Origin: Desulfotignum sp.
GTDB lineage: Bacteria; Desulfobacterota; Desulfobacteria; Desulfobacterales; Desulfobacteraceae
NCBI GenBank assembly: GCA_011389575.1
Contig: JAABUB010000012.1
Location: forward strand, 1 to 55,877
Direction: 5' to 3'
Length of the DNA stretch: 55,877 nt
The position numbers and the translations under genes were made by a program. The stretch's first letter is position 1. Each line of letters begins with the position of its first letter. Under the pieces are notes generated by a model. The model had not been told where the DNA came from, ran no database searches, and saw only the letters and a list, made by a program, of their open reading frames with translations. Of the stretch, positions 5,261 through 33,151 are shown one piece after another.

Positions 5261-5298
5261 ACAAATTTATCATTACCTATATTAATTTGTGCAAAATG

Positions 5299-5715
5299 TC
5301 AACTGATATAGAATACAGCAACATACCGCAGTCCTTTGCCGATGGCCACAAGGGGAAGAAATACAGCCAGACGGACCTTCATTATCCCGGCCACCAGGGT
5401 GAGAGGATCTCCGCCAATGGGCAGCCAGGCCAGCAAAAGGGTCCAGTATCCATAGTGCTGAAACCAGTACTGGGCCCGGGCAATCTGGGCCGGACTGAAA
5501 TAAAACCAGCGCCGGTTCTGGAACCGCAGCAAAGACAGCCCCAGCCACCAGTTGACCACAGATCCCAGGGTATTGCCAATGGTGGCGACAACCAGCAGCA
5601 AAACAGGATCTCCCCCCTGCCGCAACAGGGCAAAAAGCACAACTTCAGAATAAAAAGGCAGAATCGTGGCGGCAAAAAAAGCGGAACCGAATAAAAATAA
5701 AGTGGAAGTCACCAT
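5299..5715 (-). CDS. YqaA/DedA-type small membrane protein
   Basis: 138-residue protein with three to four hydrophobic segments and the VTT/SNARE-associated-domain pattern (early 'PFYSEVVLFALL', mid 'GNTLGSVVNWWLG', late 'WLPIGGDPLTLVAGIMKV'). This matches the YqaA branch of the DedA family. DedA relatives are linked to undecaprenyl-phosphate or phospholipid flipping; the function of YqaA itself is not established. It begins six bases after the glutamine amidotransferase stop and is the last gene of the amidoligase operon. There is no strong Shine-Dalgarno, so it probably depends on coupled translation. Confidence 0.8.
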   Translation of the reverse strand: MVTSTLFLFGSAFFAATILPFYSEVVLFALLRQGGDPVLLLVVATIGNTLGSVVNWWLGLSLLRFQNRRWFYFSPAQIARAQYWFQHYGYWTLLLAWLPIGGDPLTLVAGIMKVRLAVFLPLVAIGKGLRYVAVFYIS

Positions 5716-5721
5716 AAAAAA

Positions 5722-6378
5722 TTATGCCAGCAGCCATCTGAACAGGGCAAACTGCGACGGCAGGTAAAAAAGGTATTCCGGGTGCCACTGGACCCCGATG
5801 ATCTTCTGGCCGTTGGCTGCTTCCACAGCCTGGATAATGCCGTCAAGGTCCCGGCCCACCACCTGCAGTGTTTTGCCTGGTTCCCGGACAGCCTGGTGGT
5901 GCAGGCTGTTTACCCGAAGCGTCTTTCTGCCGCAGACCCTGAAAACCAGTGAGTTTTCCTCCAGAAACACATGTTTGGTGGGCAAAAGCCCCGGCCGGTT
6001 GTGGGTCAGGCGCCGCAGGGACCGGATATCCTGAAAAAGGTTGCCGCCCAGAACCACATTAATGAGCTGGGCACCCCGGCAGATTCCCAGCAGGGGAATT
6101 TTATGTTCCAGGGCATATTTAATCCATTTTATTTCCAGCAGATCCCGTTGTGGATCAAACTTCACCGGTGCGTTCAGATCCCCTTTGTAATGTTCGGGTG
6201 CGATATCATTTCCGCCGCCGATAATCAGTGCATCCAGAGACATATCCCCGATATCATGGTTCACACTGATCCTCCGGGCAGATCCACCGGCCAGCTGCAA
6301 AGCTGTCCTGGAACACCACCAGGCAGGTGCCCAGCGCCGGGAAGACCCGGTTACGCCAATGCGTGGTCTTGCAGCCAT
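5722..6378 (-). CDS. class I glutamine amidotransferase / gamma-glutamyl hydrolase-like protein
   Basis: 218-residue flavodoxin-like protein of the PuuD (peptidase C26) group. The nucleophile elbow GICRGAQ places Cys100, and WHPE supplies His199 and Glu201, so the triad is intact. Family members hydrolyse gamma-glutamyl amide bonds or supply ammonia. Its start lies inside the end of the amidoligase gene (28-base overlap), which binds the two functionally: a ligase that makes an amide bond and a hydrolase/amidotransferase that may trim or feed it. The N-terminal ~45 residues are Arg/Trp-rich and less typical of PuuD, so the start could be slightly different. Confidence 0.85.
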   Translation of the reverse strand: MAARPRIGVTGSSRRWAPAWWCSRTALQLAGGSARRISVNHDIGDMSLDALIIGGGNDIAPEHYKGDLNAPVKFDPQRDLLEIKWIKYALEHKIPLLGICRGAQLINVVLGGNLFQDIRSLRRLTHNRPGLLPTKHVFLEENSLVFRVCGRKTLRVNSLHHQAVREPGKTLQVVGRDLDGIIQAVEAANGQKIIGVQWHPEYLFYLPSQFALFRWLLA

Positions 6379-7334
6379 CTGCTCATCAATGCGGTCCAGT
6401 CGTTGCGGGAAACTCCCAGAAGAGGCCGGTGCATGGCCAGAAACTGCTGCCCGAGATCCTCCAGATCATCAGGCCGCTGTGCCAGTTCTTCCACCACCCA
6501 CCAGGTATTCCAGGGAAGGGCCAGGGACCAGTCTGGTTTGTCGATCTGGCAATTGGGCAACCGGTAATGAAAGGCCGGACGGGCCTTTATTTTTGTATCG
6601 GAAACCACCCTGCTGACCTGAGCGGCATTCATATGTGCAAAAAGGGGCAAAAGGTCAAGTGCCCGGTTGCGGCTGGCATTGTGCTGGAAGTAATCATCAG
6701 TGATCTGATTCCGGTCCGGTGCTGTCCGGGAAAACAATTGTTTAAGATATGCCTCCGGATACAGGTCAACAAAGGGGCTTATGCGGCGGGAAAAATCCAC
6801 CTGATGGGCATCCACCAGCCACCATTGCAGCAGGGAAAATGCCCGCAGGTAACCAAACAGACAAGAAGCATCCAGGTGCGGGACCTCTGTATTGATATGG
6901 ACACCGTAGGCGGCGATCATGGAGTCTTCAGTGCCCCTGGCTCCTGCCCGGCGCAGTTCTCCGACCAGAGGATCAAGCCGGTCCAGATCGGACACGGCAA
7001 TAGGCGGACAGACCACCTCCATGGGTACCAGCAGGGCAGCTGCCTGGCTGAGCAGGTCAAGCCAGTCCTTTGACTTGACCCGGTTCTGCTGGACTGCTAT
7101 TTTTTTAAGAAAATACCAGTCCAGTTCAATGGTAAAATCTCCCAGTCCCTGAACCGAAACCGCGCATGCAGCAGGAGACGTACTGGTGCGTTTTGCGGAA
7201 AATACCTGTTCAACCACAGCGGTTGTCCGGTTAAGATCAAGGCCGGTAAATTCAAGCTCAAAGCCCACTTTGCGAATTTTTTTATTCCGGGTATGGGTAA
7301 CTGACGGCAATTTGTAGTGTGTGCTCTGTGCCAT
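6351..7334 (-). CDS. amidoligase-family protein (COOH-NH2 ligase, Amidoligase_2 type)
   Basis: 327 residues. The N-terminal beta-hairpin 'KVGFELEFTGL', the 'FTIELDWYFLKK' segment, a central 'PMEVVCPP' and 'YGVHINTEVP' correspond to the glutamine-synthetase-fold Amidoligase_2 family, in which such acidic residues and His bind ATP and metal. These enzymes are predicted to form amide or peptide bonds on unknown small molecules or proteins and typically sit beside a class I glutamine amidotransferase, as here. Start at 7334 is preferred by length of the N terminus, with an AGGA close upstream (spacing short). An in-frame ATG at 7388 is the alternative and would add 18 residues. Substrate unknown. 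Confidence 0.82.
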   Translation of the reverse strand: MAQSTHYKLPSVTHTRNKKIRKVGFELEFTGLDLNRTTAVVEQVFSAKRTSTSPAACAVSVQGLGDFTIELDWYFLKKIAVQQNRVKSKDWLDLLSQAAALLVPMEVVCPPIAVSDLDRLDPLVGELRRAGARGTEDSMIAAYGVHINTEVPHLDASCLFGYLRAFSLLQWWLVDAHQVDFSRRISPFVDLYPEAYLKQLFSRTAPDRNQITDDYFQHNASRNRALDLLPLFAHMNAAQVSRVVSDTKIKARPAFHYRLPNCQIDKPDWSLALPWNTWWVVEELAQRPDDLEDLGQQFLAMHRPLLGVSRNDWTALMSRWLQDHALA

Positions 7335-24923: not shown

Positions 24924-25400
24924 TCAAAAGATCCAGGATCTGCCGCGCACCCATGTATAGGCGGTTGCCCCAAGCAGCACCATGGCAAGCACCAGGTGCA
25001 GCAGATCCAGACCAATAACCACACCATGGGGAAAATAGATGCCGGACAGGTTTTTCACCACCATGAAACAGCCGGTGAGAATCAGCCCGCAAAGCGCGGC
25101 TATTTTTACCCGGGCAGATGCGGTAATCCGGGTGTCTTTGGTTATCTGAAATTTTTTTGTACCGCTGTTTCTGCGGCCAAAAAAATAATCGAATGCCACA
25201 TATGCACAAAACCCCATGAGCAGTGCAGCCACGGCATAGTGAATGACATGGGTGACATAAAACTGCGCCAGCCATCCCAGCCCGGGGATGTCTGCGATGT
25301 AATAGCGTTTGAATATGGGCATCTGCGCAAATCCGCTCAAAGCGATAAAAAACAGGGTCAGGCCGTACACCATACGGCGACTTTTAAAATGATAAACCAT
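24924..25400 (-). CDS. membrane cytochrome b-like subunit (DUF4405-type)
   Basis: 158 residues with four hydrophobic segments. Histidines that could ligate b-type heme lie in 'FYVTHVIHYAVAALLMG' and 'GLDLLHLVLAMVLLG', near the membrane faces. It is translated in TGATG coupling with the four-cluster ferredoxin, which it most likely anchors and connects to the quinone pool. Third gene of the unit driven by the sigma-54 promoter at 27070-27085. No related catalytic subunit is nearby. Confidence 0.75.
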   Translation of the reverse strand: MVYHFKSRRMVYGLTLFFIALSGFAQMPIFKRYYIADIPGLGWLAQFYVTHVIHYAVAALLMGFCAYVAFDYFFGRRNSGTKKFQITKDTRITASARVKIAALCGLILTGCFMVVKNLSGIYFPHGVVIGLDLLHLVLAMVLLGATAYTWVRGRSWIF

Positions 25401-26365
25401 CAGGCCTCCTCTTTCATCTGCCTGTAATATTTTCCAACAGCTGCTGCAGCACCGGCAATTGGTGCAATGACCATGGCAATGGCCAGGTTGGATCCGGCTG
25501 CCATGGTATCTTCCACCGGATGCATATGGGGTTTGCCTTCACCGGTGTCATAGACCAGCTGGTCAAAGGGCACCGGTGACACATAAATGGTATTGGTTCC
25601 CCCGTTTTCATCAAGGCCGTAAATATAACCGTCCATCTCTTTTGCCAGATCCTTTGCCTTTTTGATGATATCGGATCTTTTGCCTATGGTCTGGACATCT
25701 TCAGGGCAGGCTTCAATACAGGCCGGCTGCTCTCCTTTTTCAATTTTCTGGTAACACCGGTCACATTTGTACATGACCCCGTTACCGGCAAAGGCAGGCA
25801 GCAGATCCAGGTAAAGGCCCGTACCGGTCTGGCGCTGGGGGATATCCCAGGGGCAGGCCTTTTTGCACTTGGATCCGCCCAGGCAGATCTGTGAATCAAT
25901 GCGGGAAAGCCCGTTTTTTTCCTGTTTGGCAGCCCCCCATGGGCACAGCTTGACACAAGGCGGGTTCTGGCAGTGCATACACCGCCGGGGAATGGTCAGG
26001 GTGATTTTTTCCCCTTCTTTGGTGGTGGCGCTGGCATACTGGATATACAGCCAGTTATACGGGGTCAGGCGGTCTGTAACATTCCGGCGGTCTGACCAGT
26101 CTTCCACCGGAACCCGGTCCGGATACATTTTGGGAAACGGTTTTTTGGGATCGGCAAATTTATGGGCATTGGCATCCTGACAGGCATACACGCATTCTTC
26201 ACACCCGATGCACCGGCTGATATCGATCAGGGTTACCAAAGGTTCTTTATCAGCATCAAAAGTACTTGCCGCCTTTGCCGTACTTGTGCCGGCAATTGCT
26301 GTGCCGGCCGCAAAAAAAGAGGTTTTTAAAAAATGCCGTCGTGAAATTGGTGAACTCATGGCCAT
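25400..26365 (-). CDS. Tat-exported four-cluster ferredoxin (HybA/NrfC/PsrB type) with C-terminal anchor
   Basis: 321 residues. A twin-arginine signal SRRHFLKTSFF is at residues about 8-18. Four [4Fe-4S] cysteine sets follow: CIGCEECVYAC, CMHCQNPPCVKLC, CLGGSKCKKAC and the split CDRC...CIEAC. The C terminus ends in a hydrophobic helix (LAIAMVIAPIAGAAAAVG), as in HybA. It should sit on the periplasmic face and pass electrons between the cytochrome b and an unidentified partner. Either the ATG at 26365 or the one at 26359, which is better spaced from GCGAG, may be used. It follows the thioredoxin gene by 25 bases. Confidence 0.88.
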   Translation of the reverse strand: MAMSSPISRRHFLKTSFFAAGTAIAGTSTAKAASTFDADKEPLVTLIDISRCIGCEECVYACQDANAHKFADPKKPFPKMYPDRVPVEDWSDRRNVTDRLTPYNWLYIQYASATTKEGEKITLTIPRRCMHCQNPPCVKLCPWGAAKQEKNGLSRIDSQICLGGSKCKKACPWDIPQRQTGTGLYLDLLPAFAGNGVMYKCDRCYQKIEKGEQPACIEACPEDVQTIGKRSDIIKKAKDLAKEMDGYIYGLDENGGTNTIYVSPVPFDQLVYDTGEGKPHMHPVEDTMAAGSNLAIAMVIAPIAGAAAAVGKYYRQMKEEA

Positions 26366-26390: not shown

Positions 26391-26999
26391 TCAGCTTTTG
26401 ACAAAATCCTGAAAACTCATGGTGTCATAGCTTTTGGTATGAATATATCTGAGAATCTGCAAAAGTTGGGATCCGTCAACATAACCGGGAAGGCTGCTGA
26501 TCCTGTTACCGTCAGGGGTGAGAAACCACATGGTGGGCAGACCCTTTACCTGCCATGTCTGGGACAAACTCTGATTCTGGTCGGTATCAACGGAAATACT
26601 GACAAAATTTTTCTCCAGATATGCCAGGACTTTTTCATCCACAAACGTGGTTTTTTTCAACTTGGTGCAATAGGTGCACCACTGGGCATAAAAATACAGA
26701 AACACGTTTTTGTCCCGGGTTTTGGCCTGGGCCAGACCCGGGGTATAGTCTTTCCAGTCGATCCTGTTATTTTGCCCGGCGTTACCGTTTTTTACCTCAG
26801 CGTTACCGTTTTCAACCCCGGCGTTACCTAGCCCGGCGTTACCTGTTGCTTCCACAGCAGGTATCTGTGTTGCTGCAACCGGTTCAGTACCATTTATACC
26901 ACCGGGATTTTTCGGCCCTGTCCGGGCTGTGAAAAACCAGAACAAGCCGACCAGGGCAATGGTTACCAGTACAATGACCAGTATATTTTCTTTTTTCAT
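26391..26999 (-). CDS. membrane-anchored periplasmic thioredoxin-fold protein
   Basis: 202 residues. One N-terminal membrane helix (ILVIVLVTIALVGLFWFF) is followed by a low-complexity Gly/Asn/Ala linker (residues about 50-78) and a thioredoxin domain with the redox motif AQWCTYCTKL and cis-proline loop GLPTMWFL. The protein resembles the DsbD C-terminal domain/SoxW type of soluble reductant carriers. It heads the sigma-54-driven unit thioredoxin-ferredoxin-cytochrome b, so it probably moves reducing equivalents or protects thiols in that pathway. Confidence 0.83.
   Translation of the reverse strand: MKKENILVIVLVTIALVGLFWFFTARTGPKNPGGINGTEPVAATQIPAVEATGNAGLGNAGVENGNAEVKNGNAGQNNRIDWKDYTPGLAQAKTRDKNVFLYFYAQWCTYCTKLKKTTFVDEKVLAYLEKNFVSISVDTDQNQSLSQTWQVKGLPTMWFLTPDGNRISSLPGYVDGSQLLQILRYIHTKSYDTMSFQDFVKS
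26765..26850 (-). repeat. short degenerate tandem repeats in the thioredoxin linker
   Basis: The core AACGC/GGTAACG recurs about every 15-21 bases. It encodes Gly-Asn-Ala units (GNAGLGNAGVENGNAEV then KNGNAG). The array is in frame and gives a flexible tether between membrane helix and thioredoxin domain. Confidence 0.7.
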
Positions 27000-27069: not shown

Positions 27070-27085
27070 AGCAAACATGGTGCCA
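27070..27085 (-). promoter_or_regulatory. sigma-54 (-24/-12) promoter of thioredoxin-ferredoxin-cytochrome b unit
   Basis: On the minus strand the sequence reads TGGCAC-CATGT-TTGCT, with GG and GC at the correct 10-base separation and an exact match to the TGGCAC-N5-TTGC(A/T) consensus. The -12 element is 71 bases upstream of the thioredoxin start. The gene for a sigma-54 activator ends 143 bases upstream. Confidence 0.85.
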
Positions 27086-27227: not shown

Positions 27228-28616
27228 TTATGCATTTTTCAGGGCAACCCCGTGTTTTTTCATGCGTTTCCATACCGTTACCCGGGAAATACCCAGCATC
27301 TGTGCCGCCTTTGTCTGGTTGCCGTCACTTTTCTGCAAAGCCTCCATCAGAGCGGCTTTTTCCGATTGTTTACACGATATTTTAGCCGGAACAACCGGAT
27401 CAGGCAGGGAATCCAGGGAAGTGGATATATCCGGATTATGCTGCAGCAGTTTTTCCGGCAGATGTTCAGTGCCGATACTTTTTCCTTTTGCCAGCACAAA
27501 GGCATATTCCACGGCATTGCGCAACTCCCTGATATTGCCGGGCCAGGGATAGGCCACCATGGTCCGCATGGCCCGGGGGGTAAACCCGAGAATGTTTTTC
27601 TTTGTTTTCTGTGCCAGAATACTGATAAAATGCTGGATGATCAAGGTGATATCATCCTTGCGATGGCGCAGGGGTGGACAGATCAAAGGAAACACATTGA
27701 TCCGGAAATACAGGTCCTGACGAAATTCCCCCTGGAGGATCATTTTTTCAAGGTCCTTGTTGGTAGCGGTGATGATGCGCACGTTAATAGGTATGGAGCG
27801 GTTATCCCCCACCCGCTGGATCATCTGTTCTTCCAGCACCCGCAGCAGTTTCACCTGGACTGACAAGGGGATATCCCCGATTTCATCCAGAAAAATTGTG
27901 CCCTGGTGGGCTGATTCAAACCGGCCGATACGGTCATTCGCAGCCCCGGTATACGCCCCTTTCACATGGCCGAACAATTCGCTTTCCAGAATGGTTTCAC
28001 TCAAAGCCGCACAATTGACCTTGACAAAGGGTTTGTCAGCCCGATTTCCTTTTTCGTGCAGGGCCTTGGCCACCATTTCCTTGCCTGTACCGCTTTCTCC
28101 GAGAATAATCACCGGTGTGTCCAGGGAGGCAACCCCCTGGATATGTTCAAAAAGATTCTGCATCACCGGGGCACGTCCGATAATCCCGTGGAACCCGTCA
28201 TCAATATGGTAAATGCGTTTTATGGTATCCAGTTCATTTTGATAGCTGATATTTTCCGAAATATCCTTGAGGGTCTCCACTGCGCCTGTGATCTGTCCGG
28301 CATCATCGTACAGCACTGTTGCGGTTTTGACTATGGGAATGGTCTGTTTGCGGCTGTCTGTTATCATGCATTTTTTGTCCCGGACCAAACCCTGGGAAAA
28401 AAGCATGCACCAGTCTTTTCCTTTTCCAATGCCCTTGATTTCACACCCGGTGCAGTTGAGGATCCGGCAGGACCGGCCTATGAGCTGGTCTTCTGTATAT
28501 CCTGTCATGAGCTGGGCCGAGTGGTTGGCAGCAATAAAATTGCCTTGTTCATCCACCAGGATAATCCCATCCTGAACCGAATCTATGATCACCCGCCAGT
28601 TTTTTCCAATATCCAT
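27228..28616 (-). CDS. sigma-54-dependent activator with cysteine-rich PAS sensor
   Basis: 462 residues from the preferred start at 28616, which has GGGAG six bases upstream (frame open to 28664). An N-terminal PAS domain (VIIDSVQDGIILVDEQG) carries five cysteines in CRILNCTGCEIKG, WCMLF and KKCMI. The AAA+ domain has Walker A GESGTGKE, a sigma-54-contact loop reading GAYTGA (Tyr for the usual Phe), FLDEIGDIP, and ATNKDL. A Fis-type helix-turn-helix is at the C terminus (NQTKAAQMLGISRVTVWKRM). There is no receiver domain, so the signal is sensed directly by the PAS, probably redox, metal or sulfur species. It lies between two sigma-54 promoters and is the obvious activator. Confidence 0.93.
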   Translation of the reverse strand: MDIGKNWRVIIDSVQDGIILVDEQGNFIAANHSAQLMTGYTEDQLIGRSCRILNCTGCEIKGIGKGKDWCMLFSQGLVRDKKCMITDSRKQTIPIVKTATVLYDDAGQITGAVETLKDISENISYQNELDTIKRIYHIDDGFHGIIGRAPVMQNLFEHIQGVASLDTPVIILGESGTGKEMVAKALHEKGNRADKPFVKVNCAALSETILESELFGHVKGAYTGAANDRIGRFESAHQGTIFLDEIGDIPLSVQVKLLRVLEEQMIQRVGDNRSIPINVRIITATNKDLEKMILQGEFRQDLYFRINVFPLICPPLRHRKDDITLIIQHFISILAQKTKKNILGFTPRAMRTMVAYPWPGNIRELRNAVEYAFVLAKGKSIGTEHLPEKLLQHNPDISTSLDSLPDPVVPAKISCKQSEKAALMEALQKSDGNQTKAAQMLGISRVTVWKRMKKHGVALKNA

Positions 28617-28631
28617 TTCTTTCTCCCGTAC

Positions 28632-28663
28632 TGTTAACCACAATGTTAAGTAACACATTAACA
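28632..28663. promoter_or_regulatory. candidate activator binding site (TGTTA palindromes)
   Basis: A perfect palindrome TGTTA-AG-TAACA (28644-28655) is flanked by another TGTTAA (28632-28637) and an inverted TTAACA (28658-28663). It lies about 120-150 bases upstream of the sigma-54 promoter at 28782, the normal distance for an enhancer, and directly in front of the activator's own ribosome-binding site, suggesting autoregulation. Which protein binds is inference. Confidence 0.5.
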
Positions 28664-28781
28664 CATGATTAGCACTTTGGCAACACCAGCGCCATTTTCT
28701 TAAAAAAAATATTTATAATTTTAATTACAAAAATCTTAAAAAAAAGATAGTTATAAAATATTTCTTCATTTTTTTCCCAGG

Positions 28782-28797
28782 TGGCACATGGGTTGCT
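28782..28797 (+). promoter_or_regulatory. sigma-54 (-24/-12) promoter of the rhodanese-octaheme unit
   Basis: TGGCAC-ATGGG-TTGCT, an exact consensus match. The -12 element is about 100 bases upstream of the rhodanese start. The DNA between the activator gene and this site is strongly AT-rich (28700-28770), as expected for a bendable enhancer-promoter spacer. Confidence 0.9.
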
Positions 28798-28896: not shown

Positions 28897-29994
28897 ATGA
28901 ACATTCATCCATTAAAACACACGTTTTTTGTCATGGCAGCCTGCCTGATTCTTTTGACCGGCGCCATGCAAGCCCTGGCTGCCGAAGACTGGATGTACCA
29001 TGACATTGTGGAGGCGGATTTTGTCATTTCCCATGTCACCGTACCCATGGCGGAAAATGTCATGATCATCGATGCACGGCCTTACAAACCCATGTATGTC
29101 AAAGGACACATACCCGGTGCCGTGAGCATTCCGTTCACTGCTTTTGACAAAAAAACCGATCTTCTACCCAAAGACAAAAACGCCCTGCTCATCTATTACT
29201 GCGGGGGTGTGGAATGTAAATTAAGCCACAAATCCGCCAAAAAAGCACAAAAGCTTGGCTATACCAATGTAAAGGTTTTTGCCAAGGGATTTCCGGAATA
29301 TATGAACCAGGCCGGGGCCTATGCCGCTGTATCAGCAGAGTATGTGGCTGCAAAAATTGCGGAAAACAAAACCCTGGTGGTGGACTCCCGTCCCCAGAAA
29401 CCCAAGTACGACAAAGGCCATATTCCCACAGCCATCAGCATTCCCTTTACCCATTTTGATGACCTGTCCGGCAAACTGCCCCGCAGCCTTGAAACCCCCG
29501 TCATTTTTTACTGCGGCGGGCTTCACTGCCGGTTGAGCCACAAAAGTGCGGCCAGAGCCCTTGTCATGGGATACAAGGATGTATCCGTGTTTGCTTTGGG
29601 ATATCCTGAATGGAAAAATCAGTTTGGCGCAGCTGCTGATACCGTGGCAGTCAAGGCGGGCGAAATCGAAGGTTCCATTGATCTGGACCGGTTTAAAACC
29701 ATTATCACCACGAATCCGGAATCCATCATGCTGATAGACACAAGGGATCCGGATGAATTTGCCAAAGGACATTTCAAGACCGCTGTCAACATCCCGGTGG
29801 CGGACCTGGAAGATAAAATTCCCGGATTTCCAGCGGACAAGCCCGTTGTGTTTGTCTGTTCCACCGGTGCCAGAAGCGGGGAGGCCTATTACATGACCAA
29901 GGATGTCAGAGAGTCTCTGACCGATGTCTACTATGTGGAAGCCCAGATCAGTTTTAAAAAAGACGGCACCTATACCATCAAGGCGCCAAAATAG
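28897..29994 (+). CDS. periplasmic triple-rhodanese protein
   Basis: 365 residues with a signal peptide (FFVMAACLILLTGAMQALA, cleavage near ALA-AE) and three rhodanese domains. Domains 1 and 2 have active-site loops CGGVEC (Cys102, Cys107) and CGGLHC (Cys206, Cys211), both followed by (K/R)LSHKSA; domain 3 has the more classical CSTGARS (Cys321). Each domain starts with a 'DxRP/DTR...KGHI' element (IDARPYKPMYVKGHI, VDSRPQKPKYDKGHI, IDTRDPDEFAKGHF). It probably binds or transfers sulfane sulfur in the periplasm. Start at 28897 has AGGAG five bases upstream. First gene behind the sigma-54 promoter. Confidence 0.88.
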   Translation: MNIHPLKHTFFVMAACLILLTGAMQALAAEDWMYHDIVEADFVISHVTVPMAENVMIIDARPYKPMYVKGHIPGAVSIPFTAFDKKTDLLPKDKNALLIYYCGGVECKLSHKSAKKAQKLGYTNVKVFAKGFPEYMNQAGAYAAVSAEYVAAKIAENKTLVVDSRPQKPKYDKGHIPTAISIPFTHFDDLSGKLPRSLETPVIFYCGGLHCRLSHKSAARALVMGYKDVSVFALGYPEWKNQFGAAADTVAVKAGEIEGSIDLDRFKTIITTNPESIMLIDTRDPDEFAKGHFKTAVNIPVADLEDKIPGFPADKPVVFVCSTGARSGEAYYMTKDVRESLTDVYYVEAQISFKKDGTYTIKAPK

Positions 29995-30121: not shown

Positions 30122-30472
30122 ATGTTTAAAAAGATGCTTGTTTTTTTCACCCTGATCCTTTTCACCCTGGGATCCGTTCCGGCCGTGTTTGCCGATGACG
30201 CTCCGGACGGCAACGAACGCAAAGGCAAATACACCTACCGCAAAGTGATCAAGGCCTGCCATGAAAACGGCGGCGTGGATTCCCCCTCCCCCACGGTCAG
30301 CCCGGCTGACATGACCCGGGCCGAATGGAAACAGATTTTCGAATCCCGCAACTTTGAGGCCTTTGGCTGCCAGGCACAATGGGATGCCATATCCGACCAG
30401 GATATCAAGGATATTCATGCCTATTTCCACGCATTTGCCAAGGACTCTCCCGCACCTGCCACATGCAGCTAA
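30122..30472 (+). CDS. small periplasmic protein resembling a cytochrome c with degenerate heme motif
   Basis: 116 residues: a signal peptide (LVFFTLILFTLGSVPAVFA) then 'GKYTYRKVIKACHENGG' and 'DMTRAEWKQIF', a layout like class I cytochromes c (GKxxYxxxCxxCHxxGG). The first heme cysteine position is Ile43, leaving only Cys46-His47, so heme would be held by one thioether or not at all. Two further cysteines lie in 'EAFGCQAQWD' and at the C terminus. AAAGGAG eight bases upstream fixes the start; the frame is open further upstream through the intergenic region. Lies between rhodanese and octaheme genes in one unit. Confidence 0.65.
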   Translation: MFKKMLVFFTLILFTLGSVPAVFADDAPDGNERKGKYTYRKVIKACHENGGVDSPSPTVSPADMTRAEWKQIFESRNFEAFGCQAQWDAISDQDIKDIHAYFHAFAKDSPAPATCS

Positions 30473-30545: not shown

Positions 30546-32273
30546 ATGGGAATACATCTGAAACAAAAATACCGGAGCGGTCCGGCAAAAACCGTCCAGG
30601 CAAAAATGGCATTCGGCCGGACAAATGATTCATACCTGCCGGCATCCCCTGCGTTCCGCTGGACGGCGGCACTGGCGGCGGTGCTGGTTTTCGGAATACT
30701 GGCCGTCACCGGTCCGGCGGCGGCATCGGTGGCCGCAGCCGCACAAGAACAAGAGGCATTGGGACCGCAACTGGCCAAACAGGCAGTCCGGGCCGACAAA
30801 CACTGGACAACTGTGGATCACGGCAAACTGACAGAGCTGGACCGGAACTTCACCTCCGGAGACCAGATCACCCAGGCCTGCCTTTCCTGTCATACCGATG
30901 CTGCCATGCAGTTTGAAGAAACCATCCACTGGACCTGGAAAGTACCTTCTGAAAAGCCCGGCATCATGAACGGCAAGGCAGGCCATGCTGTCAACAATTT
31001 CTGTATTTCCGGAAATGCCATGGAAGACAAGGGCTGTCTGAGCTGCCATGCCGGCTGGGATGGTACGGACGGGCAGGTCAACTGCCTGGCCTGTCATGGA
31101 AAAGAAAAATTTCCTTTCAAGGAAACCTTTGCAGACCTGGCTGCTTTTGCCGGAGATGATGACCCGGACCTCCAGGAAATTGTTGCAGAACTTCATGCTG
31201 ATATCAAAACAGCAGTAAAAAACATCACCCTGCCCCAGCGCAACAACTGCGGAGAATGCCATTTTAAAGGCGGCGGGGGCGATGGGGTCAAACACGGGGA
31301 TCTGGACACCTCCCTTGCCAAACCCAACCGGATGCTCGATGTGCACATGGCGGCAGACGGTGCTGATTTTTCCTGCACCAGGTGCCATACCACGGTAAAA
31401 CACCATATTGCAGGCAGGCTGTATACCCGGCCGGCCTCAGCGGAACGTAAAAGTTTGATCCAGGATGACATGGCCTCCAAAATCACCTGTGAGTCCTGTC
31501 ACAGTGCCACCCCCCACGATACCACCACAAAAATGAACGACCATACCGATAAAGTGGCCTGCCAGAGCTGCCATATCCCGGAATTTGCCCGGGTCAATCC
31601 CACAAAAATGTGGTGGGACTGGACCACAGCCGGCAAGCTGAAGGACGGTAAGCCATATGAAGAAAAAGGGGAGTTCGGCAAACCTGTCTACAAATCCATT
31701 AAAGGCAGTTTTATCTGGGCCAAAAATGTGGTACCCCAGTACTTCTGGTACAACGGCTCTTTTGACAATATCGGCATCAAAGATGAAATCGATCCCCAGC
31801 AGATTGTGGAGGTGAGCCATCCTCTGGGATCTCCCGATGACCCCAATGCGCGGATTCATCCTTTCAAGATCCACCGGGGAAAACAACCTTACGACAAAAT
31901 CAACAAACAGCTGGTGGCACCGCTGCTTTCCGGTCCCAAAGGGTTCTGGACCACCTTTGACATGGATGAGGCCATCACCATAGGCAATCAAACCCTGGAT
32001 GTGCCCTATTCAGGAGAATTTGACTATGTGGAAACCACCTATGCCTTTCCCATCACCCATATGGTGGCACCGGCAAGCAAGTCTCTGGAATGCAGTGCAT
32101 GCCATATCAGAGAGAACTCCCGGCTGGCCGGTATCACCGGGGTGTATCTGCCTGGAAAAGACAAATCCGATCTTGTGGACACCATCGGCCTGATCGCGGT
32201 ACTGGGTGCCCTGGCCGGGGTCATGCTCCATGGACTGGGCCGCTTTTTCACCCGCAACGGCAAGGAGGAGTAA
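30546..32273 (+). CDS. octaheme cytochrome c, tetrathionate-reductase (OTR) family, membrane-anchored
   Basis: 575 residues with eight CxxCH motifs in order: CLSCH, CLSCH, CLACH, CGECH, CTRCH, CESCH, CQSCH, CSACH. The 'FEETIHWTWK' segment near heme 1 and the overall spacing match the octaheme tetrathionate reductase family, whose characterised member reduces tetrathionate, nitrite and hydroxylamine in vitro. A hydrophobic export segment at residues about 39-62 and a C-terminal helix (TIGLIAVLGALAGVMLHGL) hold it on the periplasmic side of the membrane. GGAGG supports the start. The next gene, a cytochrome b, starts two bases after the stop. Confidence 0.9.
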   Translation: MGIHLKQKYRSGPAKTVQAKMAFGRTNDSYLPASPAFRWTAALAAVLVFGILAVTGPAAASVAAAAQEQEALGPQLAKQAVRADKHWTTVDHGKLTELDRNFTSGDQITQACLSCHTDAAMQFEETIHWTWKVPSEKPGIMNGKAGHAVNNFCISGNAMEDKGCLSCHAGWDGTDGQVNCLACHGKEKFPFKETFADLAAFAGDDDPDLQEIVAELHADIKTAVKNITLPQRNNCGECHFKGGGGDGVKHGDLDTSLAKPNRMLDVHMAADGADFSCTRCHTTVKHHIAGRLYTRPASAERKSLIQDDMASKITCESCHSATPHDTTTKMNDHTDKVACQSCHIPEFARVNPTKMWWDWTTAGKLKDGKPYEEKGEFGKPVYKSIKGSFIWAKNVVPQYFWYNGSFDNIGIKDEIDPQQIVEVSHPLGSPDDPNARIHPFKIHRGKQPYDKINKQLVAPLLSGPKGFWTTFDMDEAITIGNQTLDVPYSGEFDYVETTYAFPITHMVAPASKSLECSACHIRENSRLAGITGVYLPGKDKSDLVDTIGLIAVLGALAGVMLHGLGRFFTRNGKEE

Positions 32274-33135: not shown

Positions 33136-33151
33136 TGGCACATGAATTGCT
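33136..33151 (+). promoter_or_regulatory. sigma-54 (-24/-12) promoter of cydAB-rubredoxin
   Basis: TGGCAC-ATGAA-TTGCT, an exact consensus match and nearly the same sequence as the rhodanese promoter (TGGCAC-ATGGG-TTGCT). The -12 element lies about 48 bases before the cydA start. Confidence 0.88.

Follow-up and report, generated by a model that had tools for sequence, protein, structure and literature searches.

Paired-cysteine loops, with selenocysteine in some relatives, in a probably exported triple-domain rhodanese encoded beside an octaheme cytochrome in Desulfotignum

The loci described here raise a question, what are two cysteines doing in a rhodanese loop that classically holds one? 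The window, the whole 55,877-nucleotide stretch of Desulfotignum sp. that was analysed (contig JAABUB010000012.1, assembly GCA_011389575.1), encodes at positions 28,897-29,994 of the forward strand a probably exported triple-domain rhodanese of 365 amino acids, P0001, identified by its complete open reading frame, by Pfam and by its orthologues. In a Pfam profile search three stretches of the protein match the rhodanese family PF00581 with 153.7 bits, above the curated cut-off of 22.2 bits, and P0001 is thus a rhodanese-domain protein. A probable Sec-pathway signal peptide, judged by eye, covers residues 1-28 and ends in ALA (28,897-28,980, forward strand); in the AlphaFold2 model the pLDDT of residues 1-27 lies below 50. 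On the strength of this signal peptide the protein is probably exported. The classical rhodanese loop has six residues, with a single cysteine and none at the sixth place. By sequence and alignment domain 3 fits this description (C321-STGA-R326, in the string CSTGARS; 29,857-29,874, forward strand), whereas domain 1 (C102-GGVE-C107; 29,200-29,217, forward strand) and domain 2 (C206-GGLH-C211; 29,512-29,529, forward strand) do not. By spacing, their second cysteine, encoded by TGT in loop 1 and TGC in loop 2, stands where the classical loop has its terminal arginine.

The first-pass annotation had read the three loops as CGGVEC, CGGLHC and CSTGARS and had regarded the first two domains as duplicates, and both readings hold in the complete 365-residue frame. 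LSHKSA directly follows loops 1 and 2, and the two domains share 50 of 96 residues, with an alignment score of 271 against a best score of 44 in 200 shuffles. Alignments of domain 3 with domain 1 (17 of 51 identical, score 71) and with domain 2 (17 of 48, score 72) also exceed their shuffles. Because domains 1 and 2 within one protein are on average less alike (mean identity 0.60) than first domains taken from different proteins (0.68; 49 proteins, alignment A2), the duplication looks older than the P0001 family. The closest named relatives come from Desulfotignum MAGs, with up to 92% identity. A frameshift or chimaera is ruled out by the complete reading frame and by matches at E <1e-100 in 25 other genomes, and a PHROGs search at 0.001 for a phage origin gave no match. 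Nor is a C-x4-C rhodanese loop unique to this protein; it occurs in BH2092 of Bacillus halodurans and a second time in the same genome, in a single-domain rhodanese with the loop YCDGEACPLSH (L003, G000:C126:3312-3596).

Is the second cysteine a chance replacement? The first-pass annotation had proposed that domains 1 and 2 may be redox-active sulfur stores, unlike ordinary sulfurtransferases, with cysteines that could form a disulfide or carry a polysulfide, and had named non-conservation of the second cysteine among homologues as a result that would overturn the idea. We find the reverse. C102, C107, C206 and C211 are invariant in the alignment of 18 orthologues, three of which carry TGA, counted there as cysteine, and likewise in alignment A2, whose 49 proteins were drawn from loci without TGA and are uninformative on cysteine versus selenocysteine. 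In 80 named loci, most of them from Desulfobacterales, the second residue is cysteine or an in-frame TGA wherever loop 1 or loop 2 is complete: 68 loci have cysteine in both loops, TGA stands in both in eight and in loop 1 but not loop 2 in three, and the last is a partial copy (L075) with cysteine in its single complete loop, so that 11 of the 80 carry TGA. This recount used a profile in which position 6 was unconstrained, and it agrees with an earlier text-pattern count that had required C or U there. The wider set adds distant members from the phylum, in which a search at 1e-25 gave matches in 55 of 395 genomes. Its counts include some genomes twice and cover loops matched by a profile built from the P0001 family; within these bounds a first-position cysteine is accompanied by C or U at position 6 in 314 domain instances and by another residue in six, and C6 occurs without C1 in three. 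Another 104 rows are gapped at position 6 and are mainly third domains of the CxTGARS type. C-x4-TGA accounts for 68 domain instances, and TGA at position 1 for none.

The TGA codons at loop position 6 are almost certainly read as selenocysteine, because they are confined to one position, are followed by a covarying SECIS-type hairpin, and require at least 19 switches between cysteine and selenocysteine on a tree. In the aligned proteins of the named loci all 19 TGA codons fall at position 6, any TGA beyond the aligned part being counted as a stop. The hairpin 3' of the TGA has a mean stability of -14.4 kcal/mol in 62 distinct selenocysteine loops, compared with -9.3 for the same region of 189 cysteine loops (Mann-Whitney p 7e-17, from sequences that are related to one another). 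For 52 of the 62 sequences its apical loop is placed at +22 or +23, and GG lies within the first three loop bases in 46 of the 62. Five consensus SECIS pairs were counted in 57 selenocysteine sequences, five CRS-type loops being excluded. Pair 20-32 forms in all 57, variously as C-G, G-C, U-A, U-G or A-U, but in 58 of the 189 cysteine sequences; pair 23-29 forms in 55 of 57 versus 70 of 189, and pair 24-28 in 44 of 57 versus 42 of 189. Pairs 21-31 and 22-30 are uninformative, as they form in nearly all selenocysteine sequences but also in 185 and 177 of the 189. Sequencing error or pseudogenes are ruled out as the source of the TGA, since the same codon recurs across many genomes together with the covarying hairpin.

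The tree, a quick one with long branches, holds 151 proteins, eight of which come from another group of rhodaneses, namely those with CRS-type loops and the related cysteine forms, and a protein was scored as a selenoprotein when any of its loops carries selenocysteine. Of its 19 or more changes 14 are forced by starred branches, and shuffled labels average 43. A site at which cysteine and selenocysteine replace each other so often behaves as a catalytic redox residue does; selenocysteine is typically retained for redox catalysis. The proposal of redox-active loops is thereby carried part of the way, in that the repeated exchange is easier to reconcile with a redox role in catalysis than with a structural role; a disulfide or polysulfide, and storage in place of transfer, stay conjectural. 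Of 59 genomes searched for SelB, four of them with the selenocysteine form, 50 have it above the cut-off, including the genome of the window and the selenocysteine-form genomes G029, G041 and G043; in the fourth, G042, SelB is split across two neighbouring frames. The rhodanese of the window is itself a cysteine form although its genome encodes SelB, which counts against the explanation that we prefer below. In genome annotations the selenocysteine forms probably appear as truncated genes.

Other rhodaneses carry TGA in their loops as well. In the same genome, one (L001, G000:C84:7262-7531) opens its loop with TGA (YUAVGGRS), which probably encodes selenocysteine, and is followed by a stretch that is ferritin-like by eye, and another (L008, G000:C40:406-687) has the loop YCAUPSEY and resembles, by its loop alone, the CxU form (NF041203). 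Five loci (L081, L106, L110, L112 and L128) have in the same stretch a separate rhodanese gene with the loop CRS(F/Y)xU and TGA at position 6; in L081 a thioredoxin-like region follows it, by eye.

Beside which genes is this rhodanese encoded? We find a conserved unit that consists of a sigma-54 type site with its activator, the rhodanese, a small exported protein, an OTR cytochrome and a cytochrome b561. A -24/-12 type site that matches TGGCAC-N5-TTGC exactly lies upstream of the rhodanese at 28,782-28,796 (forward strand). Of the 80 orthologous operons 76 have at least 250 upstream bases, and 48 of these carry an exact site there; among 1600 random stretches 46 do. Three such sites occur in the window, against a mean of 0.22 in shuffles, and they precede the rhodanese operon, the thioredoxin-like and Fe-S genes (27,071-27,085, reverse strand, upstream of the thioredoxin-like gene) and cydA. 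The last (33,136-33,150) lies just upstream of cydA and suggests that the bd oxidase belongs to the same regulon. Divergent from the rhodanese, at 27,228-28,664 on the reverse strand, Pfam identifies a PAS/sigma-54 activator, whose PAS part is rich in cysteine (NCTGCE...DWC) and is perhaps a redox or metal sensor.

Homologues of the neighbours were counted as tblastn matches (1e-5) anywhere in the fetched stretch, and many contigs end early; on this count the activator has a homologue in 58 of the 80 named loci. Downstream of the rhodanese on the forward strand are a small, probably exported protein of 116 residues (30,122-30,472; 71 of 80 loci), the octaheme cytochrome c of the OTR family (30,546-32,273; 67 of 80) and a cytochrome b561-type membrane protein, a probable quinol dehydrogenase (PF01292; 32,275-32,916; 59 of 80). 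The small protein has no match in Pfam and NCBIfam searches; it looks like a former monohaem cytochrome c whose CxxCH was lost in this lineage, for among 72 sequences, a total that counts the one from the window, six keep the motif. On the reverse strand lie a thioredoxin-like protein with the motif CTYC (26,391-26,999; by Pfam; 27 of 80), a possible reductant that by eye has a membrane stretch at its N-terminus and that matches the C-terminal part of NF045694 (TsoB) with 65.3 bits; an HmcB-like 4Fe-4S protein (25,400-26,365; by Pfam and NCBIfam; 30 of 80, six of the matches merely 25-29% identical); and a 158-residue membrane protein, so judged by eye (24,924-25,400; 22 of 80), for which Pfam and NCBIfam searches gave no match.

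The linkage to the cytochrome extends to whole genomes. A near full-length rhodanese orthologue (E <1e-100) is present in 26 of 59 genomes, that of the window included, and all 26 have an OTR match, compared with 15 of the 33 genomes without such an orthologue (Fisher p 1.8e-6, from genomes that are related). OTR and rhodanese are no more than about 3 kb apart in 25 of the 26; in the exception, G042, the rhodanese is on a 3.9-kb contig. The cytochrome belongs to the OTR family, with eight CxxCH motifs and a TIGR04315 score of 507.7 bits (cut-off 375), and matches the Shewanella OTR (1SP3) at E 5.7e-97. Its Cys153, in the motif NNFC (31,002-31,004, forward strand), aligns with chain position 64 of 1SP3. 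In Shewanella OTR, Cys64 is located by the active haem. NNFC or NNYC is found in 63 of 64 OTRs of named loci that are long enough to judge. The aligned parts of 67 OTRs from named loci hold no TGA, and selenocysteine in the OTR of this operon is accordingly rejected. Other OTRs do carry TGA at the Cys153 position (NNFU, or NDYU in L211), and therefore both gene products, rhodanese and cytochrome, carry a residue that is exchanged with selenocysteine elsewhere. The genome of the window encodes a second OTR-family cytochrome with an in-frame TGA at NNFU (L208, G000:C82:26000-38000, frame at about 5267-6926), apparently a selenoprotein, whose gene is followed by a cytochrome b561-like gene; L209, L210 and L211 likewise have OTRs with an in-frame TGA at that position. 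A selenocysteine-containing OTR is listed as annotated in GenBank in the portion of PMC13188914 available to us.

Several distant members differ in build: after an N-terminal CxxCH comes a domain with a C-x4-C/U loop, the next domain lacks cysteines in its loop, and the third is classical. In four of 18 fetched distant neighbourhoods (L190, L198, L201 and L205) profile searches recognise a PhsA-like molybdoenzyme; PhsA is the best NCBIfam match in all four, each below its cut-off, and two of the four have NrfD. The neighbour in L202 is PhsA-like by eye, and Fe-S and b561 genes are found there by profile, while L196 has homologues of the activator, Fe-S and 158-residue genes of the window. No PhsA-like enzyme was recognised in 13 of the 18, L196 among them, most of whose frames lay outside the profile scan, a point against the explanation preferred below; the 12 apart from L196 were judged by haem count and by comparison with the neighbours of the window. 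The fetched stretches of L198, L201 and L205 hold no multihaem frame, and in L190 an 11-motif frame lies nearby.

An AlphaFold2 model of P0001, built with 49 sequences, has a mean pLDDT of 86.8 and a pTM of 0.61; the individual domains are well predicted and their arrangement is uncertain. The fold matches are mostly rhodaneses, the multi-domain ones including EanB, 1YT8 and YnjE. Domain 2 superposes on BH2092 (3O3W) with Z 15.6 and 2.8 A over 116 residues. Domain 3 has a weak sequence match (E 0.0041) to 1QXN, a structure labelled 'sulfide dehydrogenase', which we take to be the Sud protein.

What, then, might a protein do that has three rhodanese domains, an invariant residue pair in two of them, cysteine/selenocysteine exchange with SECIS-type hairpins at the second residue of the pair, and a place in an OTR operon behind a sigma-54 type site? 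The explanation that we favour, and think on balance probable, is that P0001 handles sulfane sulfur in the periplasm for sulfur respiration, loops 1 and 2 acting as dithiol or thiol-selenol pairs that release sulfur reductively. The substrate, the persulfide and bridge chemistry, the direction of flow and the electron donor are what we infer in the following scheme. Domain 3, with its classical CxTGARS loop, would probably be the point of entry, accepting the sulfane sulfur of thiosulfate, polysulfide or a polythionate. In domains 1 and 2 the first loop cysteine (C102, C206) would carry this sulfur in persulfide form, and the second loop residue (C107, C211; selenocysteine in many relatives) would serve as the resolving thiol that attacks the persulfide. 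This attack by residue 6 would release sulfide or pass the sulfur to a partner enzyme and would leave a bridge between the two loop residues, for which the reductant could be the respiratory chain, through the cytochrome b561 and octaheme cytochrome, or else the thioredoxin-like protein, whose gene runs divergently. A bolder form of the proposal, which we regard as doubtful, is that domains 1 and 2 are themselves a dithiol or selenothiol sulfane-sulfur reductase that draws quinol-pool electrons through the octaheme cytochrome, or elsewhere through a molybdoenzyme module, with the NNFC cysteine of the cytochrome in the same relay. If true, this would make them an unrecognised class of respiratory sulfur reductase.

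Could P0001 instead be an ordinary sulfane-sulfur carrier, whose loops bind persulfide or polysulfide and pass it on with no redox cycle, the second residue tuning the pocket or offering a second loading site? The rhodanese fold, the weak match of domain 3 to 1QXN and the respiratory neighbours are all consistent with this, and the Sud protein of Wolinella presumably works in this way. The close pairing of the two loop residues and the repeated cysteine/selenocysteine exchange at the second argue the other way, as does the redox use to which selenocysteine is generally put, and we consider a carrier without redox chemistry unlikely. The sulfur substrate is a separate matter, and it is uncertain because nitrite or hydroxylamine reduction has been reported or proposed for OTR cytochromes in the text available of PMC6896113 and PMC7887784. 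The operon might thus serve oxyanions or nitrogen oxides (nitrite, hydroxylamine, selenite, tellurite or arsenate), its loops working like the CX4C of arsenate reductase or low-molecular-weight tyrosine phosphatase. The extHIJKL cluster of Geobacter includes a rhodanese lipoprotein, ExtH, and reduction of selenite and tellurite fails when extI is mutated, according to the part of PMC6148476 available; ExtH is likened here by description, its kinship with the P0001 family being conjectural. Some members of the family adjoin PhsA-like enzymes, and the published links to a Psr operon and to thiosulfate, as given in the accessible portions of PMC12142623 and PMC10376724, point to sulfur, which leaves the oxyanion or nitrogen-oxide reading rather improbable.

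A thiol-disulfide helper for assembly of the octaheme cytochrome, acting in haem attachment or repair and outside the respiratory reaction, would account for the thioredoxin-like gene nearby and would explain why the rhodanese is so tightly linked to an octaheme cytochrome with its eight CxxCH motifs. Yet L198, L201 and L205, where the rhodanese lies beside a PhsA-like enzyme, lack a multihaem frame (L190 has its 11-motif frame), and 15 of 33 genomes have an OTR without a near full-length rhodanese orthologue; we think such a helper very improbable.

Octaheme-rhodanese clusters, a Psr-linked protein with three rhodanese domains and predicted selenocysteine rhodaneses are already in print, as seen in the parts of the sources available. 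In the openly accessible literature, subscription papers lying outside it, we did not find a paired-loop reading, cysteine/selenocysteine switching in three-domain exported rhodaneses or a sigma-54-controlled rhodanese-OTR unit in the text that could be seen. The available part of PMC13188914 catalogues rhodanese selenoproteins as predictions in five forms. Its table 1 credits 'form 1' (PF00581, motif UxxS, WP_010941598.1) to Zhang and Gladyshev 2005. Relatives of P0001 resemble it, in that K-L-S or V-M-S comes directly after a selenocysteine at loop position 6; P0001 differs, having cysteine there, and selenocysteine occurs in 11 of the 80 orthologous loci. From the motif alone we infer that form 1 and the relatives of P0001 may be one family, for which that part of the paper gives no residue pairing, operon or mechanism. 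The same source describes TsoB (NF045694) as a rhodanese/DsbD fusion-like selenoprotein with the motif UxxxxU and two selenocysteines. TsoB is the best NCBIfam match of P0001, at 109.9 bits, far below the cut-off of 805 bits, with the best stretch at profile positions 39-152 of 572, and P0001 lacks the DsbD part; P0001 likewise scores 61.8 bits against rhodanese_LYCAU (NF041203), whose cut-off is 115. The spacing of UxxxxU is that of the two loop residues, which suggests that it may be the rhodanese loop of TsoB, and if so it would fit a loop that needs reduction.

Two organisms offer likenesses by description. Clusters 5-T and 4 of Dethiobacter alkaliphilus encode SirA/Otr-like octaheme cytochromes together with rhodanese-domain proteins, as the window does, and the cytochrome DealDRAFT_1917 is upregulated on thiosulfate; the organism is distant, and loops, selenocysteine and a sigma-54 site are not given in the portion available (PMC10376724). 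RS06465 of Desulfurivibrio dismutans shares with P0001 three PF00581 domains and a signal peptide, lies in a Psr operon next to a respiratory sulfur reductase and is strongly upregulated in sulfur disproportionation; unlike P0001 it is a predicted lipoprotein beside a molybdenum polysulfide reductase, and its loop sequences are absent from the account (available part of PMC12142623). Among structures, BH2092 (3NHV, 3O3W) has the loop CWGPAC, with the C-x4-C spacing of loops 1 and 2, but is a single domain with CNGATKAA where P0001 has C-LSHKSA. The multi-domain rhodaneses YnjE (3IPO, 2WLR) and EanB (6KTX) are among the top fold matches, with whole-protein rmsd of about 10-20 A. Sud of Wolinella, related to P0001 by a weak sequence match only (1QXN), presumably feeds periplasmic sulfur to a respiratory enzyme, as we propose for P0001, and differs in having one domain and a single loop cysteine. 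Set beside these systems, reductive release of sulfur from paired loops would be a role, open to testing, for a family of predicted selenoproteins to which the literature seen assigns no function; the same would hold for the octaheme cytochrome family, whose substrate in the cell is not settled, and the natural cysteine/selenocysteine pairs at one position are ready material for testing what selenium contributes to sulfur chemistry.
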